From Deltaproteobacteria bacterium (lineage in GTDB: Bacteria > Myxococcota_A > Polyangia > Polyangiales > Houyiibacteriaceae), in NCBI GenBank assembly GCA_019313915.1, contig JAFDAJ010000002.1, forward strand, positions 95,098 to 129,961: 34,864 nucleotides of DNA, read 5' to 3'. Numbering within the stretch: position 1 is the first letter of the stretch; every line of letters starts with the position of its first letter. A program made the translations under genes and the position numbers. Positions 25,264-34,841 of this stretch are shown one piece after another. A model generated the notes under the pieces. The model worked only from the letters and a program-made list of their open reading frames with translations, was not told the origin of the DNA and ran no database searches.

Positions 25264-25950
25264 ATGCAAGACGTCGCTGTCATCATTCCCGCTCTGAACG
25301 AGGAAGCGGCGCTACCCCTCGTCCTCCGCGAAATCCCCCGCCCCCCAGTTCGCCGCATCATCGTCGCCGACAACGGCTCCACCGATCGCACCGCTGAAGT
25401 AGCGCGCGAAAACGGGGCTGAGGTCGTCCACGAGCCCGAACGCGGTTACGGCGCAGCTTGCCTGAAAGCCCTCGCGCATCTCGCAGCCAACCCACCCGAC
25501 ATCGTCGTCTTCCTCGACGGCGACTACAGCGACCACCCCGACGAGCTTCCGTCGCTGATCGACCCAATCCTCGCCGGCGATGCCGACATGGTGATCGGCT
25601 CGCGCGCACGTGGCCGACGTGACCAGGGCGCACTCAGCCCGCAACAACAGGTCGGCAACACCATCGCCTGCACCGCGCTTCGCCTCCTCTACGGCGTCAG
25701 CTACACGGACCTCGGGCCCTTTCGCGCAATCCGCTGGGAGACTTTGCAGGCTCTCCAGATGCAGGACCGCAACTACGGTTGGACGGTCGAGATGCAGATC
25801 AAGGCCGCGCAGCGAGGCGTCGCCTATGGCGAAGTGCCGGTCTCGTACCGGCAGCGCATCGGCGTCTCTAAAGTTAGCGGCACCTTCCGAGGTTCGGTGG
25901 GTGCGGGCGTTAAGATCCTCTGGCTGCTAGGTCGCTACGCATGGAGCTAG
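25264..25950 (+). CDS. Glycosyltransferase family 2 protein
   Basis: The 228-residue single-domain GT-A enzyme starts VAVIIPALNEEAALPLVLRE (4-23). RRIIVADNGSTDRT follows at 30-43, where the Asp binds the nucleotide. ERGYGAACLKAL and the metal-binding VVFLDGDYSDHPDELP (DGD near 82) come next, then GSRARG and DLGPFRAIRWETL. The pattern is that of dolichyl-phosphate-mannose-synthase-like transferases that move a sugar to a lipid or small acceptor; the C-terminal end (VKILWLLGRYAW) is hydrophobic and may touch the membrane. The exact donor and acceptor cannot be read. The last ten bases overlap the next transferase gene, so the two are very likely translated together. Confidence 0.92.
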   Translation: MQDVAVIIPALNEEAALPLVLREIPRPPVRRIIVADNGSTDRTAEVARENGAEVVHEPERGYGAACLKALAHLAANPPDIVVFLDGDYSDHPDELPSLIDPILAGDADMVIGSRARGRRDQGALSPQQQVGNTIACTALRLLYGVSYTDLGPFRAIRWETLQALQMQDRNYGWTVEMQIKAAQRGVAYGEVPVSYRQRIGVSKVSGTFRGSVGAGVKILWLLGRYAWS

Positions 25951-26612
25951 CGCAACTGGTCGTGTTTGCGCGACCGCCTACTGCAGGCACGGTGAAAACA
26001 CGGCTTGCGGGCCTCTTCGGAGAGCGCGGCGCGGCCGAGCTCTACGAAGCGTTCGTCGAGGATACGCTTCGTCTGTGCTTGCGCATTCGCGCGGCGGGGC
26101 GCCTCGATGTGGCGCTTTGGTCAGCCGGTCCGGACGACGAGCGGGTATCCGAATGGGCGGGCCGCCTGGGCGCAACTGCCCACTTGCAGCCGCCAGGCGA
26201 CCTCGGGGTGAAGCTTGCCGCCGCCTTTGACGAAGGGCTTCGGCATTACCAACGCGTGTTGATCATCGGAAGTGATGCGCCGACCCTCCCGATCGAGCTC
26301 ATCGGCGCCGCGTTCGATTCACTCGAAAACGCCCCGATCGTGCTTGGCCCGGCGAATGACGGAGGTTACTACGCGGTCGGCGCGTCGCATTCCGTGCGGC
26401 CCAGCTTCGAGGGGGTTCGCTGGTCCACCGCCCACGCCTTCGGGGACACCGTGAGGGCCAACGCTCAACGGGTCGTCGCAACGATTGCCCCTTGGTACGA
26501 CATCGACGAGCCGGAAGACCTCGCAGTCCTCAGGGCGCATCTTTCCCTGGATCCCGCGGCAGCACCGGCCACCGCGCGTCGCCTACGCGAGCTTGCCCGG
26601 GCTCAAAGGTAG
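25941..26612 (+). CDS. TIGR04282-type (DUF2064) glycosyltransferase/nucleotidyltransferase-like protein
   Basis: The 223-residue product opens with LVVFARPPTAGTVKTRLA at 6-23, the typical K.P..G.VKTRL nucleotide-binding phrase of DUF2064 proteins. VLIIGSDAPTLPIELI near 90-105 and VLGPANDGGYYAVG near 133-146 follow. This family, annotated in databases as TIGR04282 transferases, often sits next to a family 2 glycosyltransferase, as here; some members are linked to arsenosugar formation, but no radical SAM or arsenic gene is nearby, so that label should not be taken over. The start overlaps the upstream transferase gene by ten bases, and the end overlaps the convergent cardiolipin synthase by ten bases. 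Confidence 0.88.
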   Translation: MELAQLVVFARPPTAGTVKTRLAGLFGERGAAELYEAFVEDTLRLCLRIRAAGRLDVALWSAGPDDERVSEWAGRLGATAHLQPPGDLGVKLAAAFDEGLRHYQRVLIIGSDAPTLPIELIGAAFDSLENAPIVLGPANDGGYYAVGASHSVRPSFEGVRWSTAHAFGDTVRANAQRVVATIAPWYDIDEPEDLAVLRAHLSLDPAAAPATARRLRELARAQR

Positions 26613-29985: not shown

Positions 29986-30432
29986 CTACTGGTCGCCGGC
30001 TTCGTCGTACTCGAGAACTCGTTTGGCGAAGAACCGCACGAGCACGTAGAGCAGAAGGCCGACCGGGCCGACCATCAGCGTCACGATGAGGCACGGAACG
30101 ACCATGAGATGTGGGATGCCCCGCCGTTGCGCATCGCGCGCCTCCCAGGCACCCACGAAGAGGTCGAAGATCAGGTAGTGAATCCAACCGGCGACGACGA
30201 TGTGCGGCGTTGAGAAGCCGACCATCACACCGTAGAGCGAGCTGAACGCCATGCCCTCCGGCGGCGGCGCATAGCCGAACAACAGGTAGGCGTATATCGG
30301 TGTGAGCAGCAGAACAACGACCGGGCCGTGCACCAATCGCTGCGTCCAAGACCATCGCGGCGCGACCATCAACAGGAGCCAGAACGGAATCACCGCGTAG
30401 TTGGCGGCTTTGAATAGGCTTTCGAGCGGCAT
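29986..30432 (-). CDS. ABA4-like (DUF4281) membrane protein
   Basis: The 148-residue product starts MPLESLFKAANYAVIPFWLL, matching the DUF4281 opening in which an Asn-Tyr-Ala is followed by a hydrophobic helix and APRW near 23-26. Four hydrophobic helices follow (about 12-30, 38-58, 80-100 and 112-140). The segment IHYLIFDLFVGAWEARDAQR near 84-103, with an acidic FDLFVG turn, is typical of the family. The plant member ABA4 is needed for neoxanthin formation; bacterial members have no settled role. The frame is open to 30540, but the chosen ATG has AAGGA nearby and keeps the start off the promoter palindromes. It is divergent from the copper monooxygenase-like gene. Confidence 0.85.
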   Translation of the reverse strand: MPLESLFKAANYAVIPFWLLLMVAPRWSWTQRLVHGPVVVLLLTPIYAYLLFGYAPPPEGMAFSSLYGVMVGFSTPHIVVAGWIHYLIFDLFVGAWEARDAQRRGIPHLMVVPCLIVTLMVGPVGLLLYVLVRFFAKRVLEYDEAGDQ

Positions 30433-30480
30433 CGCGTATCCTTCAGTCGGGGCACCACACTTGCGCGGACCCTTGCTGTC

Positions 30481-30507
30481 CGTCAATTGAATGAGAGTCA
30501 ATTGACG
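30481..30507. promoter_or_regulatory. Paired TCAATTGA palindromes, candidate operator
   Basis: CGTCAATTG (30481-30489) and CAATTGACG (30499-30507) form an exact nine-base inverted repeat with a nine-base spacer. Each arm contains TCAATTGA, itself a palindrome, so GTCAATTGA is also repeated directly with a 15-base period. It lies between the ABA4-like start (30432) and the first copper monooxygenase-like start (30549). It has the form of a dimeric regulator binding site; the regulator is unknown. Confidence 0.6.
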
Positions 30508-30548
30508 CAGTGTCGGCCCATCTCTACAACTACGGGACAATAAAGTTA

Positions 30549-32306
30549 ATGCCGAAGCTCATTCCACAGCTACTTATCTTCAGCGCCGCCTCAGCGTTCC
30601 TCCTGGCCGCGTGCAGCGGTTCCGACTCGAACGGCGGCACCGCCCCCAAGGATTGCAACTACGCCAATACGTACGACGCGATTCAAGCGACGGTGTTCGA
30701 GGCCAACGGCTGCACGGCGAGCGCGTGTCACGGCGAGACGCTCAGCGGGGGTCTCGATCTCCGTGCCGACGCTTCGTTTGATGCTCTGGTCCGGCAACCG
30801 AGCACGATCGATCCTTCGACCGAGCGTGTCTTTCCCGGCGACCAAGGGCGCAGTCTTCTGTACGGCAAGCTAGCCGCGGCGACCGAAGGCACCGACCTCG
30901 GCGACCTCGGTCAGTCGATGCCGATCAACCTGGATCCCCTGAGCGCCGATCAACTCGAGGCCATGCGACTCTGGATACGGGCGGGTGCACCAGCGGATTC
31001 GATCGTCGGCGGAACGCTCGAGCTTCTCGGTTGCGACGGTACGTTCGACCCGGATCCCAACAAGATCAACCCCCTTCCGCCTCCCGCTGCAGACGAAGGT
31101 TTGCAGTTCTATGCGGGTGGGTGGGCGATCGATGCCGAGGCTGAAGACGAGGTCTGCTTTGCCTCTTACTACGACTTCACCGACCAGGTCCCCCCGGAAT
31201 ACCAAGTCGACTGCGATGAGTACGGCGAAGGCCGAAAGTGTTTTGCGTTTCGCCGCAACGAGCTCGCCCAAGACGGCCAGTCGCACCACAGCATCATCAC
31301 CATCTACACGCCCGACTCCGACCCGAATGGTGGCAACTGGGGGCCCTGGGCGTGTTTGGGTGGCGACAAAGCCGGCGAGAGCTGCGACCCGATGGTGGCC
31401 AATGGCTGCGGTCCGCGCAGCCAATGTACGACTCCGGCGGTCACCGCAGTCGCGTGTGTCGGATATCCCCACGCGCCGCCGGACTTCGGTCTGGGACCGG
31501 GCGGCGGTTCGACCGGGAGCCAGGTGGGGCTCTCCGGAGCGCAGGAGTCGACGTTCATCGACGACCCGCCAGTCGGTGTGTATTCGGTGCTGCCGCTCAA
31601 GGGCTTCGTCTCTTGGAACAGCCATGGGTTCAACCTCACCAAGAAGGCGACCTCGATCGAGCAATGGGTGAACCTCACCTTTGCGCCCGAATCGGAGCGT
31701 AGCTGGCTGCGCCGCCAGATCTTCGAAGCCGGCGAAATCTTCGCCATGAGCCCGGTTGCTCCCTTCGCCAAACGTGAGGTGTGCATGACCTGGACACTGC
31801 CGCGGTACTCGGAGTTGCTGTCGCTCAGCTCACACATGCATGCTCACGGCGAGCTCTTCCGGATTTGGTTGCCGCCCAACGAACCGTGCGCGGGGGCCAA
31901 CAACTGTCTTCCGCCGCAGACCGAGGCCGACTACCTGAGTCGGCTCTACGACGATCCGCTTTATACCTACTACGACCCTCCGAACAGCTACCCCGCGGCT
32001 GACGCAGCCGGCCGCACGTTCAAGGCTTGTGCGGTCTACGACAACGGCGCCGACAATCCTCTCGAGGTCAAGCGTGAGTCCACTAAACCCAATACGCCGG
32101 CATGCGATTTCTTCTTTGGCTTCTGCGGCTGCGACGCCATCGAACGCGCTTGCTTAGGCGGCGACAGTCAAGGAGAGCTCTGCGACGGCGATGACTCGCT
32201 CTGTGGCGAGGGCGGCACCTGCGACGCATGCCCGCTCGTAGGCGGCGTGACCACGGCGGACGAGATGTTCATCCCGCTGGGATCGTACTATGTGCAAGAA
32301 CCTTAA
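30549..32306 (+). CDS. Lipoprotein with heme-c-like N-terminus and type II copper monooxygenase-like domain (paralogue 1)
   Basis: The 585-residue product starts with a lipoprotein signal (LLAAC; lipidated Cys 22). Residues ~36-160 resemble a cytochrome c: CTASACH at 55-61 is a CX4CH heme motif, followed by GLDL and by SMPINL with Met 124 as a likely distal ligand. From ~185 the sequence has the ligand pattern of type II copper, ascorbate-dependent monooxygenases (peptidylglycine hydroxylase/dopamine hydroxylase): SHHS with His 246-247, NSHGFN with His 359, SSHMHAHG with His 429 and 431, YDNGADNP, and TTADEMFIPLGSYY with Met 573. Two cysteine modules (268-293 and 535-561, C.GG...G..C...C...C) are inserted. 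It should sit in the outer membrane or inner-membrane outer face. The ATG at 30549 was chosen for the signal peptide. Confidence 0.82.
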   Translation: MPKLIPQLLIFSAASAFLLAACSGSDSNGGTAPKDCNYANTYDAIQATVFEANGCTASACHGETLSGGLDLRADASFDALVRQPSTIDPSTERVFPGDQGRSLLYGKLAAATEGTDLGDLGQSMPINLDPLSADQLEAMRLWIRAGAPADSIVGGTLELLGCDGTFDPDPNKINPLPPPAADEGLQFYAGGWAIDAEAEDEVCFASYYDFTDQVPPEYQVDCDEYGEGRKCFAFRRNELAQDGQSHHSIITIYTPDSDPNGGNWGPWACLGGDKAGESCDPMVANGCGPRSQCTTPAVTAVACVGYPHAPPDFGLGPGGGSTGSQVGLSGAQESTFIDDPPVGVYSVLPLKGFVSWNSHGFNLTKKATSIEQWVNLTFAPESERSWLRRQIFEAGEIFAMSPVAPFAKREVCMTWTLPRYSELLSLSSHMHAHGELFRIWLPPNEPCAGANNCLPPQTEADYLSRLYDDPLYTYYDPPNSYPAADAAGRTFKACAVYDNGADNPLEVKRESTKPNTPACDFFFGFCGCDAIERACLGGDSQGELCDGDDSLCGEGGTCDACPLVGGVTTADEMFIPLGSYYVQEP

Positions 32307-32436
32307 TCCTAAGGGCCAATAAATGGTGCTTAAAGGTTATCAAGCTGAGTACATCTCACATTTTGTACTTGCACTGATAGCCCAATCAGAAACAATCCGG
32401 CCCTAACTTACGCTAAAACCCCGTTTGGAGTGACTA

Positions 32437-34254
32437 ATGAAACCCGTTCAATACGCGATCGCAGCCTTCGCTGCGTTGTTCATCGCGGCATGTGGAGCCG
32501 ACGGCTCGGGCGGCACCGCGCAGAAGTGCGATGCCGACAGCACATTCGCTCAGGTTCAGCAGCAGATCTTCGAGGCGCGAGGATGCACTGCTTCGGCCTG
32601 TCACGGTGAAGCCGCGAACGCCGGGCTCGACCTTCGACCCGAGAGTGCGTACGCGAGCCTGATCAACGTCGATGCGACGACAGGCGACTTCAAGCGCGTC
32701 TTTCCCGCCGAGCAGGACCTCAGCATTCTCTACCTCAAAGTGGCGGCGAACGTGAACGCGCCGAGCCTAAGCGAGATGGGTATCTCCGGGGCCACGATGC
32801 CAATCGGGGGCAGCGCCTTGAGCGAGCAGGATCTCGGCTTGCTGCGCGCATGGATCCGGGGTGGCGCTCCGGAGACCGATATTGTGGACGGCTCCGAGGA
32901 GTTCGCTTCTTGTGATCTGCAGGGCGATGTTGCGCCGAACAAGATTCAACCGCTTGCGCCCCCCGCGGCCGGCAAAGGGGTTCAGTTCTACTCGGGCGGC
33001 TGGGATGTCCCGGCCGAGCAGGAAGGCGAGGTTTGCTTCGTCACCTACTACGACTACTCCGACCGCGTCCCGGAAGAGTTCAGGCTTCCATGCGGCGAGA
33101 CCCAAGGTGGCTCGGGCCGGGAGTGCTTTTCGTTCAACAACGTCTTACTAGCGATGGATCCCCAGTCTCACCACAGCATCGTCGAGTTCTACGTTCCGCC
33201 CGACGATAGCCCCGAGCAGTGGGATCCGATGGACGAGTCCTGGAAGAACTGGGCCTGCCTGGGCGGGGCAAACGCCGGCGTGACTTGCACCCCGGGAAGC
33301 GACGAATGCGGTGAGCGCAGTCAGTGCGCCACCACTCCCGAGGTCACCGTCGCCTGCATCAGCTACGACAACGCTCCTGACGAAATGGGCACCGCGGCGG
33401 GTCTTTTCGGCCGTGCCGAGGTGAGGATCAACCTGGCCACCGCACAGGAGGCCGCCTTCGTCGAAGACTATCCGCCGGACGTCTACTCGCTCATGCCCGT
33501 CAAGGGTTTTGTCGTGTGGGACAGTCACGCGTTCAACCTCACGACGCAAGACACCTCGCTCGAGCAATGGATGAACCTCGAGTTCGCCCCCGCGGAGGAG
33601 TCAGTCTTTCTACGCAAACAGATCTTCGATGCGCGCGACATCTTCGGCATGGGGCAGATCGATGCCTTCACTTCGAAGGAGGTCTGCACGACCTACACGA
33701 TTCCGCAGCATGGCCAGCTGCTCACGCTGAGCTCGCACACGCATCGCTTTGGTAAGAAGTGGCGTACCTGGTACCCACCGAACGAGCCCTGTGACCCCGG
33801 ACCAGACTGTCAGCCCGAGGAACGCGAGCCGGATTACACGAGCTTCGACTACGCGGACCCCCTCTATCAACGGTTCACCGGTGACGGGATTCTCTCGTTT
33901 GACAGCGATACCGTGGAGGAGCGCACATTCAAGTACTGCGCCGTCTTTGACAACGGAGAGAACAACCCTTCGGAAGTTCGCCGGGAGTCACTCAAGCCAG
34001 AGGCAGAGACCTGCGACTTCGTAGATGGCATTGCTCCTTTCGCGGAGGCCGCCGGTTTCAAGATCTTCACGTGCGGCTGTGTTCCTGAGGAGCGCTCCTG
34101 CTTCGGCGGTCCCGACCAGGGCATGGCCTGCAACGGCGATGACATGGTCTGCGGTGAAGGTGGCATTTGCGACGCGTGCCCGGCTGGCGGCGGCGTCACG
34201 ACTGAAGAGGAAATGTTCATTCTCCTTGGGTCGTATTACGTCAAGACGCCGTGA
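32437..34254 (+). CDS. Lipoprotein with heme-c-like N-terminus and type II copper monooxygenase-like domain (paralogue 2)
   Basis: The 605-residue product is a paralogue of the preceding protein over its whole length. Lipobox IAAC has Cys 19. CTASACH at 50-56 is again CX4CH, and MPIGG has Met 121. The copper-ligand pattern is SHHS with His 245-246, DSHAFN with His 364, SSHTHRFGKKW with His 434 and 436, FDNGENNP, and TTEEEMFILLGSYY with Met 593. HTHRFGKKW is closer to the HTHHLGKVV of peptidylglycine hydroxylase than the matching stretch of paralogue 1. The same cysteine modules occur at 272-297 and 555-581. GGAG (32427-32430) is six bases before the ATG. The 130-base gap from paralogue 1 is AT-rich for this window and might hold a promoter, so co-transcription is open. 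Substrate is unknown. Confidence 0.83.
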   Translation: MKPVQYAIAAFAALFIAACGADGSGGTAQKCDADSTFAQVQQQIFEARGCTASACHGEAANAGLDLRPESAYASLINVDATTGDFKRVFPAEQDLSILYLKVAANVNAPSLSEMGISGATMPIGGSALSEQDLGLLRAWIRGGAPETDIVDGSEEFASCDLQGDVAPNKIQPLAPPAAGKGVQFYSGGWDVPAEQEGEVCFVTYYDYSDRVPEEFRLPCGETQGGSGRECFSFNNVLLAMDPQSHHSIVEFYVPPDDSPEQWDPMDESWKNWACLGGANAGVTCTPGSDECGERSQCATTPEVTVACISYDNAPDEMGTAAGLFGRAEVRINLATAQEAAFVEDYPPDVYSLMPVKGFVVWDSHAFNLTTQDTSLEQWMNLEFAPAEESVFLRKQIFDARDIFGMGQIDAFTSKEVCTTYTIPQHGQLLTLSSHTHRFGKKWRTWYPPNEPCDPGPDCQPEEREPDYTSFDYADPLYQRFTGDGILSFDSDTVEERTFKYCAVFDNGENNPSEVRRESLKPEAETCDFVDGIAPFAEAAGFKIFTCGCVPEERSCFGGPDQGMACNGDDMVCGEGGICDACPAGGGVTTEEEMFILLGSYYVKTP

Positions 34255-34313: not shown

Positions 34314-34841
34314 ATGGCTCGGTACAACGCCTACAATTCCGAATGTCTTCTCTTCTCATTCAAAGACGGGCTCTTGGCCCGGCTTGCTCACGACTTGAAG
34401 TTGCAGGTCGAGCGGTTTTCGATCGAGGTCGACGACACGACTCATCAGATCAAAGCCACGTTCGATCCGAGCAGCATCCAAGTCGTTTGTGCTCAAGCCG
34501 ACGGACGCGACGACCCGTCGACGCTGAGCAAGGGCGACAAGAAGAAAATCCACGACAACGTCACCAAGGACGTGCTGCGAACGCGCAAGCACCCCGAGAT
34601 TCGCTTCGATTCGACCAACGTCGTGGAACGCGGCGAGGGGTTCGCGGTCGAAGGGACGCTTCAGCTGTACGGCAAGTCCCGCAGCATCCAGACCAGCGTC
34701 CGAGCCACGGGCGGTCGATGGGTGGCCGAGTTGAAGCTCCATCAGCCGGATTTCGGGATCAAGCCCTTTACGGCGGCACTTGGAGCCTTGAAGGTGAAGC
34801 CCGACGTGCTGGTTCGGGTCAGCGTTCCGCAACAGAGCTAG
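34314..34841 (+). CDS. YceI-domain protein
   Basis: The 175-residue product is a YceI-like beta-barrel: FKDGLLARLAHDLKLQVERFSIEVD near 16-40 (the A..HDL segment), an acidic strand region, DDPSTLSKGDKKKIHDNVTKDVLRTRKHPEIRFDST near 65-100, and GTLQLYGKSRSIQTSV near 112-127. YceI proteins are lipocalin-like and bind isoprenoid or amphiphilic molecules. Unlike E. coli YceI it has no signal peptide, so it should stay in the cytosol. It follows paralogue 2 by 59 bases on the same strand. A link to the monooxygenases, for example an isoprenoid substrate, would be a guess. ACTGTAA is repeated in the gap (34254-34260 and 34265-34271). Confidence 0.87.
   Translation: MARYNAYNSECLLFSFKDGLLARLAHDLKLQVERFSIEVDDTTHQIKATFDPSSIQVVCAQADGRDDPSTLSKGDKKKIHDNVTKDVLRTRKHPEIRFDSTNVVERGEGFAVEGTLQLYGKSRSIQTSVRATGGRWVAELKLHQPDFGIKPFTAALGALKVKPDVLVRVSVPQQS

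Follow-up and report, generated by a model that had tools for sequence, protein, structure and literature searches.

Peptidylglycine hydroxylase (PHM) and dopamine hydroxylase (DBH) are the textbook ascorbate-dependent copper enzymes, and in animals enzymes of these types produce noradrenaline and amidated peptide hormones. The copper ligands of DBH are His262, His263, His333, His412, His414, and Met487, and its N-terminal DOMON domain, which is folded like the cytochrome domain of cellobiose dehydrogenase, contains no heme ligands, a regulatory role having been proposed for it (PMC4846438). Here, we analyzed a stretch of 34,864 nucleotides from a Deltaproteobacteria bacterium (contig JAFDAJ010000002.1; hereafter the window), in which two tandem genes, cyt-PHM-A and cyt-PHM-B (A and B), encode lipoproteins combining an N-terminal CX4CH cytochrome c-like domain with a core resembling the type II copper monooxygenases. 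We consider it likely that A and B are self-reducing type II copper monooxygenases of the cell envelope with a built-in cytochrome.

The open reading frame (ORF) of A occupies 30549-32306 on the plus strand and encodes 585 residues, with an alternative in-frame GTG start at 30510. The ORF of B (32437-34254, plus strand) encodes a full-length paralogue of 605 residues, which is 50% identical to A, and the approximate domain limits in B are residues ~27-160 for the cytochrome-like part and ~170-605 for the copper core. An earlier sequence-only reading of this DNA had described tandem full-length paralogues with the motif order lipobox, CTASACH, MP, HH, H, HxH, and EM, which was confirmed in both ORFs at the following positions.

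30549..32306, plus strand: cyt-PHM-A lipoprotein, N-terminal CX4CH cytochrome c-like domain and type II copper monooxygenase-like core (91-homologue alignment; genus-wide orthologues at the same place)
30612..30614, plus strand: lipobox Cys22 of A (LAAC)
30711..30731, plus strand: heme motif CTASACH of A, residues 55-61 (Cys/Cys/His invariant in 91 homologues)
30918..30923, plus strand: MP of A, Met124, putative distal heme ligand
31284..31289, plus strand: HH of A, residues 246-247, predicted CuH ligands (alignment to PF03712 fusions and PHM/DBH)
31623..31625, plus strand: H359 of A, predicted third CuH ligand
31833..31841, plus strand: HMH of A, residues 429-431, predicted CuM ligands
32262..32267, plus strand: EM of A, residues 572-573, Met573 being the predicted third CuM ligand
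32437..34254, plus strand: cyt-PHM-B lipoprotein paralogue, 605 residues, architecture as in A
32491..32493, plus strand: lipobox Cys19 of B (IAAC)
32584..32604, plus strand: heme motif CTASACH of B, residues 50-56
32797..32802, plus strand: MP of B, Met121, putative distal heme ligand
33169..33174, plus strand: HH of B, residues 245-246, predicted CuH ligands
33256..33327, plus strand: Cys-rich insert 1 of B, C274-C297, not in PHM (conserved Cys columns)
33526..33528, plus strand: H364 of B, predicted third CuH ligand
33736..33744, plus strand: HTH of B, residues 434-436, predicted CuM ligands
34078..34179, plus strand: Cys-rich insert 2 of B, C548-C581, between HxH and Met593
34210..34215, plus strand: EM of B, residues 592-593, Met593 being the predicted third CuM ligand

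The two inserts of B resemble each other (C.GG...G..C.....CG..C), lie at different places in the core, and are absent from PHM and DBH.

Conservation was assessed in 91 full-length homologues from Myxococcota, Binatia, Halieaceae, and other metagenome-assembled genomes (MAGs). In B numbering, C50, C55, H56, M121, P122, H245, H246, H364, H434, and H436 were invariant in all 91 sequences. The copper Met593 was kept in 90, as was the Phe that follows it (EMF), with a gap in the remaining sequence in each case. With both Cys of the heme motif, its His and Met, and the five copper His all invariant, the motif set is real and far above chance.

Direct searches with A and B reached no Pfam or NCBIfam cut-off and gave no usable PDB sequence match, and the genome of the window contains no PF03712 protein above the cut-off. 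Their homology to known families was reached only via a bridge of PF03712-positive relatives. The family aligned with PF03712-positive Myxococcota proteins HH on HH, H on H, and HxH on HxH, and these fusions matched PDB entries of DBH at E 1e-40 and of PHM at E 8e-38, with the same motifs and DEMC. In profile-profile comparisons, both domains together matched the PF03712-positive CXXCH fusions at E 1.1e-15. In a comparison by halves, the C-terminal half matched the PF03712-fusion core at E 3e-5, compared with 0.25-0.32 for reversed controls and 0.18-0.45 for crossed halves.

The AlphaFold2 model of B, built on a 65-row alignment, had a predicted local distance difference test score (pLDDT) of 90.7 and a predicted template modeling score of 0.88. 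A Foldseek search of the PDB with this model returned human DBH as the top match (E 2e-9) followed by PHM entries, and among the PDB matches listed, all those with a probability of 1.00 were DBH or PHM. Using VIA-align, the model was superimposed on DBH (PDB 4zel) with a Z score of 17.2 and a root-mean-square deviation of 3.7 over 276 residues, and its residues 169-605 on PHM with Z scores of 12.3-16.9, while the next fold, PNGase F, had a Z score of 7.9. The model supports the assignment of the C-terminal two thirds to a two-domain jelly-roll core of the PHM/DBH type with a full predicted set of copper ligands, which were assigned by alignment. Thus, the type II copper monooxygenase identity proposed from the sequence is borne out by the predicted fold and the complete aligned ligand set.

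A Cys after the copper Met (EMC) is a common trait of PHM, DBH, and the PF03712 fusions, and it is not a copper ligand. At this position the sequence reads EMFILLGSYY in B and EMFIPLGSYY in A, and the EMCNLYIMYY of PHM is absent. Since the residues following the copper Met differ from those of PHM, a peptidylglycine substrate would not be expected. The replacement of EMC by EMF, the change from NLYIMYY to ILLGSYY, the large inserts in the core, and the lack of a known substrate would also suit a core that binds or stores copper, a peroxygenase or oxidase in which the cytochrome serves only for priming, or electron flow in the reverse direction. However, the six ligands that make up the two copper sites have all been retained across deep divergence, storage needs no division into CuH and CuM, and the high paralogue numbers in some genomes resemble those of enzymes with different substrates. 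We regard these other functions as unlikely.

With the CXXCH domain carried by the PF03712 fusions, the N-terminal half gave a profile-profile E of 3e-13 (reversed control 0.32), and the PF03712-fusion profile matched bc1 cytochrome c subunits (E 2e-7) as well as cytochromes c6 and c551. The cytochrome-like nature that the sequence-only reading had assigned to this segment is upheld in that it is homologous to CXXCH class-I-like cytochrome c domains. Profile searches (PF03712, PF01082, and PF07635) had also been proposed at that time. Among 65 N domains, weak matches to PSCyt1 (PF07635) were found in 34, to cbb3-type cytochromes in nine, and to Cytochrom_C in six; the PSCyt1 matches had E values of up to 1, with 2e-4 as the best and none for P0002 itself, and A and B had no match over the cut-off. 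In the structure prediction, likewise proposed and carried out for B, the copper core matched DBH and PHM, and the N domain found no PDB cytochrome by Foldseek. When modeled alone, the N domain had a pLDDT of 90.9 and the order helix-CX4CH-helix-MP-helix, and this predicted helix order fits a class I cytochrome c, which is weaker evidence than a fold match.

The heme spacing was CX4CH in 88 of the 91 homologues and CX2CH in the other three (L074, L076, and L118), and the canonical CXXCH is thus not the rule of the family. Since the clade of L118 differs from that of L074 and L076 in the tree, the spacing changed to CX2CH at least twice within the family, with MP retained. Because of these conversions, CX4CH is most likely to be read as a variant of the heme motif. 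Elsewhere, peptides of MmcA with CXXXXCH show the +615 Da heme mass by mass spectrometry (PMC11024163), and the tetraheme cytochrome c3 contains CX4CH twice (PMC10454114). For cytochrome c assembly, the genome carrying the window has three PF01578 genes but lacks ResB, which is the pattern expected of a Ccm-type system.

The spacing that deviates from CXXCH, the missing Foldseek match of the isolated domain, and the abundance of other conserved, probably disulfide-bonded Cys in these proteins could be accommodated by a segment without heme, in which the Cys pair forms a disulfide within a structural or binding module of cytochrome descent. This is very unlikely in our assessment, since the His and the Met of MP are as invariant as the Cys, at least two shifts to CX2CH left MP in place, and CX4CH is a proven heme c motif in the two cases cited above. 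Beyond the family, the domain recurs in numerous further proteins, where it has CX3-5CH and MP. Judging from these sequences, CX4CH may serve as the heme motif in many single-heme envelope proteins overlooked by profile libraries.

The combination of the two domains had been called unusual, which proved incorrect. It is common in Myxococcota, where 71 of 141 genomes contained PF03712 proteins and the majority of the proteins examined had an N-terminal CXXCH domain. This motif preceded HH in 20 of about 23 readable PF03712 loci, and the heme and copper motifs were invariant in those 20 proteins. A further group, the PHM3 proteins, has the motifs HH, H, HYH, and EMC, aligns with the PF03712 cores at E 7e-15, and has no heme domain in the genus of the window. 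In L114 and seven Myxococcota loci, however, a PHM3-type core is followed at the C-terminus by a CX4CH domain that has an MP and ends in a WI helix. The eight reversed-order loci are L114:18-1622, L170, L172, L174, L175, L176, L177, and L180. The same CX4CH cytochrome domain is thus found at either end of copper monooxygenase cores. This arrangement speaks for a functional connection of the two domains, and the fusions in both orders lend support to the idea that the cytochrome feeds electrons to the core.

Quinohemoproteins carry their cytochrome c at the C-terminus. In locus L079 (3378-11768), three tandem cyt-PHM genes are followed by a gene for a pyrroloquinoline quinone (PQQ) alcohol dehydrogenase-like propeller, whose product has a C-terminal CX4CH domain and a quinohemoprotein alcohol dehydrogenase as its best PDB match. 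By analogy, this neighbor is weakly suggestive of an enzyme that would oxidize a hydroxylated product.

These fusions also bear on the possibility that heme c is bound without serving as the donor to the copper core, the domain acting in docking, in sensing of oxygen or redox state, or in regulation, while the core would be reduced by a diffusible donor, like PHM. A precedent is the heme-less DOMON domain of DBH, which occupies the same N-terminal place and is proposed to be regulatory (PMC4846438), and the cluster member PHM3 keeps its copper ligands without a heme domain. In the present family, however, the heme ligands are invariant, the domain occurs on either end of two copper monooxygenase subfamilies, and a PQQ dehydrogenase-like protein also carries it, in an architecture known to include an electron-transfer cytochrome. 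A non-donor role therefore appears improbable to us.

The following mechanism is proposed for A and B as self-reducing monooxygenases. The class-I-like cytochrome domain would bind heme c through CX4CH, with the Met of MP as the distal ligand, and would most likely draw single electrons from the periplasmic respiratory pool. It would then reduce CuH (HH and H), taking the role of ascorbate in animals, while CuM (HxH and Met) would activate oxygen for the hydroxylation of a C-H bond of some envelope substrate. The basis of this proposal was computed, comprising the architecture, the lipobox, the invariant ligands, the core fold, the homology of both halves, the fusion in both orders, and the conserved cluster, and from it we infer heme attachment, copper binding, the direction of electron flow, oxygenase activity, and the kind of substrate.

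Several results weigh against the proposal. The Pfam gathering cut-off of PF01082 and PF03712 was reached by neither A, B, nor 13 aligned members of the family. The isolated N-domain model gave no cytochrome c match in the PDB with Foldseek or VIA. EMF in place of EMC and the large Cys-rich inserts separate the core from PHM and DBH. Finally, since PHM3 lacks a heme domain, a fused heme is not required by every member.

Among 97 related genomes, the full-length family was present in most members of the genus of the window, usually as the same tandem pair, and distant relatives were found in two further genomes of the order. The clades of A and B each hold the same members of the genus, so the duplication predates these species. 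In a scan of public genomes, 116 relatives were identified, coming from Myxococcota, Binatia, Halieaceae, one Spirochaeta MAG, and other MAGs, and about ten of the best 80 matches were copies from Co_bin.122 (JAUIFY). Several to about ten paralogues per genome were seen in JAUIFY (Co_bin.122), VGTG, VGTK, and JAJCZO, which is a strong expansion with no obvious shared pathway. The contigs of L079 and L092 are titled as a Klebsiella pneumoniae MAG (LH-02apr19-159), and the proteins they encode cluster with those of Binatia and deltaproteobacterial MAGs, so the title is probably wrong. Some relatives have long N-terminal extensions, several of which appear real and surface-related (DUF4214, DUF4215), and others look like a GC-rich open frame ahead of the true start. 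L070:7275-9629 carries DUF4214 and L076:3700-6321 carries DUF4215 with a weak PEP-CTERM-like tail, and these surface-type modules point to an extracellular location.

Within the genus, the conserved cluster consists of a divergent gene for an ABA4-like protein on the minus strand followed by A, B, a YceI-like gene, and a small lipoprotein gene, with PHM3 also present in many genomes. Two of these neighbors lie within the window.

29986..30540, minus strand: ABA4-like membrane protein, divergent neighbor, kept in the genus
34314..34841, plus strand: YceI-like gene directly 3′ of cyt-PHM-B, kept in the genus cluster

The contig of the window stops just past the YceI-like gene. In the same genome, PHM3 stands at the start of contig C285 (L156:76-1065) and is followed by YchF as in relatives, and this copy probably completes the cluster on the next contig. 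A second PHM3-type copy is encoded at L157:8627-9625 (contig C424), with HH, H, HYH, and EMC and no heme domain. Upstream of the cluster, positions 25264-26612 of the window hold a GT2 glycosyltransferase gene beside a TIGR04282-type (arsenosugar-associated) gene, which are kept in the genus. Outside the genus, no recurrent pathway was found among 120 neighbors, with no family occurring more than three times. YceI-like proteins bind isoprenoid-type lipids, and plant ABA4 acts in carotenoid metabolism; by analogy, the YceI- and ABA4-like neighbors may be taken as weak hints to the substrate.

No description of bacterial PHM-like or cytochrome-fused monooxygenases was found in open-licence papers, which does not prove that none exists. 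Pfam hits reveal the cytochrome-PHM pairing in many Myxococcota, and it is therefore not unique to the window. What is new is a CX4CH branch that Pfam does not detect, the conserved gene cluster in which this branch is encoded, and the occurrence of the fusion in both orders. We lean slightly toward the broader view that these proteins belong to an extensive, undescribed bacterial class of type II copper monooxygenases that do without ascorbate and are wired to a c-type cytochrome of their own, fused in both orders (CX2CH or CX4CH at the N-terminus, CX4CH at the C-terminus), tied to the periplasmic respiratory chain for C-H hydroxylation in the envelope, and present as many paralogues in Binatia-type bacteria. 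A and B would then be candidates for C-H hydroxylation driven by the electron transport of the cell itself. The reason why DBH has a heme-less N-terminal domain of cytochrome fold is an open question (PMC4846438), and the apparently working cytochrome c at the corresponding position in A and B would provide a testable system for ascorbate-free electron delivery to CuH.

Compared with known systems, A and B share with DBH (PDB 4zel) the core fold, the ligand order HH/H/HxH/M, and the presence of an additional N-terminal domain, whereas DBH combines a heme-less DOMON domain with ascorbate, and A and B have a c-type cytochrome-like domain, a lipobox, Cys-rich inserts, and EMF. PHM has the same core fold and ligand order but no heme domain, and the core of A and B is longer through the large Cys-rich inserts. 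The Myxococcota CXXCH-PF03712 proteins (e.g., L126, L128, and L132) contain both domains in the same order, with both halves homologous, but they have CXXCH and EMC and are recognized by Pfam, unlike A and B, which have CX4CH and EMF, contain two Cys-rich inserts, and give no Pfam match. The PHM3-like lipoproteins (L156:76-1065, L044:10811-12010) have a homologous core with the ligand set HH, H, HYH, and EMC and differ in lacking a heme domain in the genus, with CX4CH at the C-terminus in eight other loci. PSCyt1 (PF07635) has a similar N-terminal CXnCH and a later MP, the spacing being CXXCH there and CX4CH in A and B. The quinohemoprotein alcohol dehydrogenase (PDB 1kb0) is likewise a redox enzyme fused to a cytochrome c, but its catalytic domain is an unrelated PQQ propeller.

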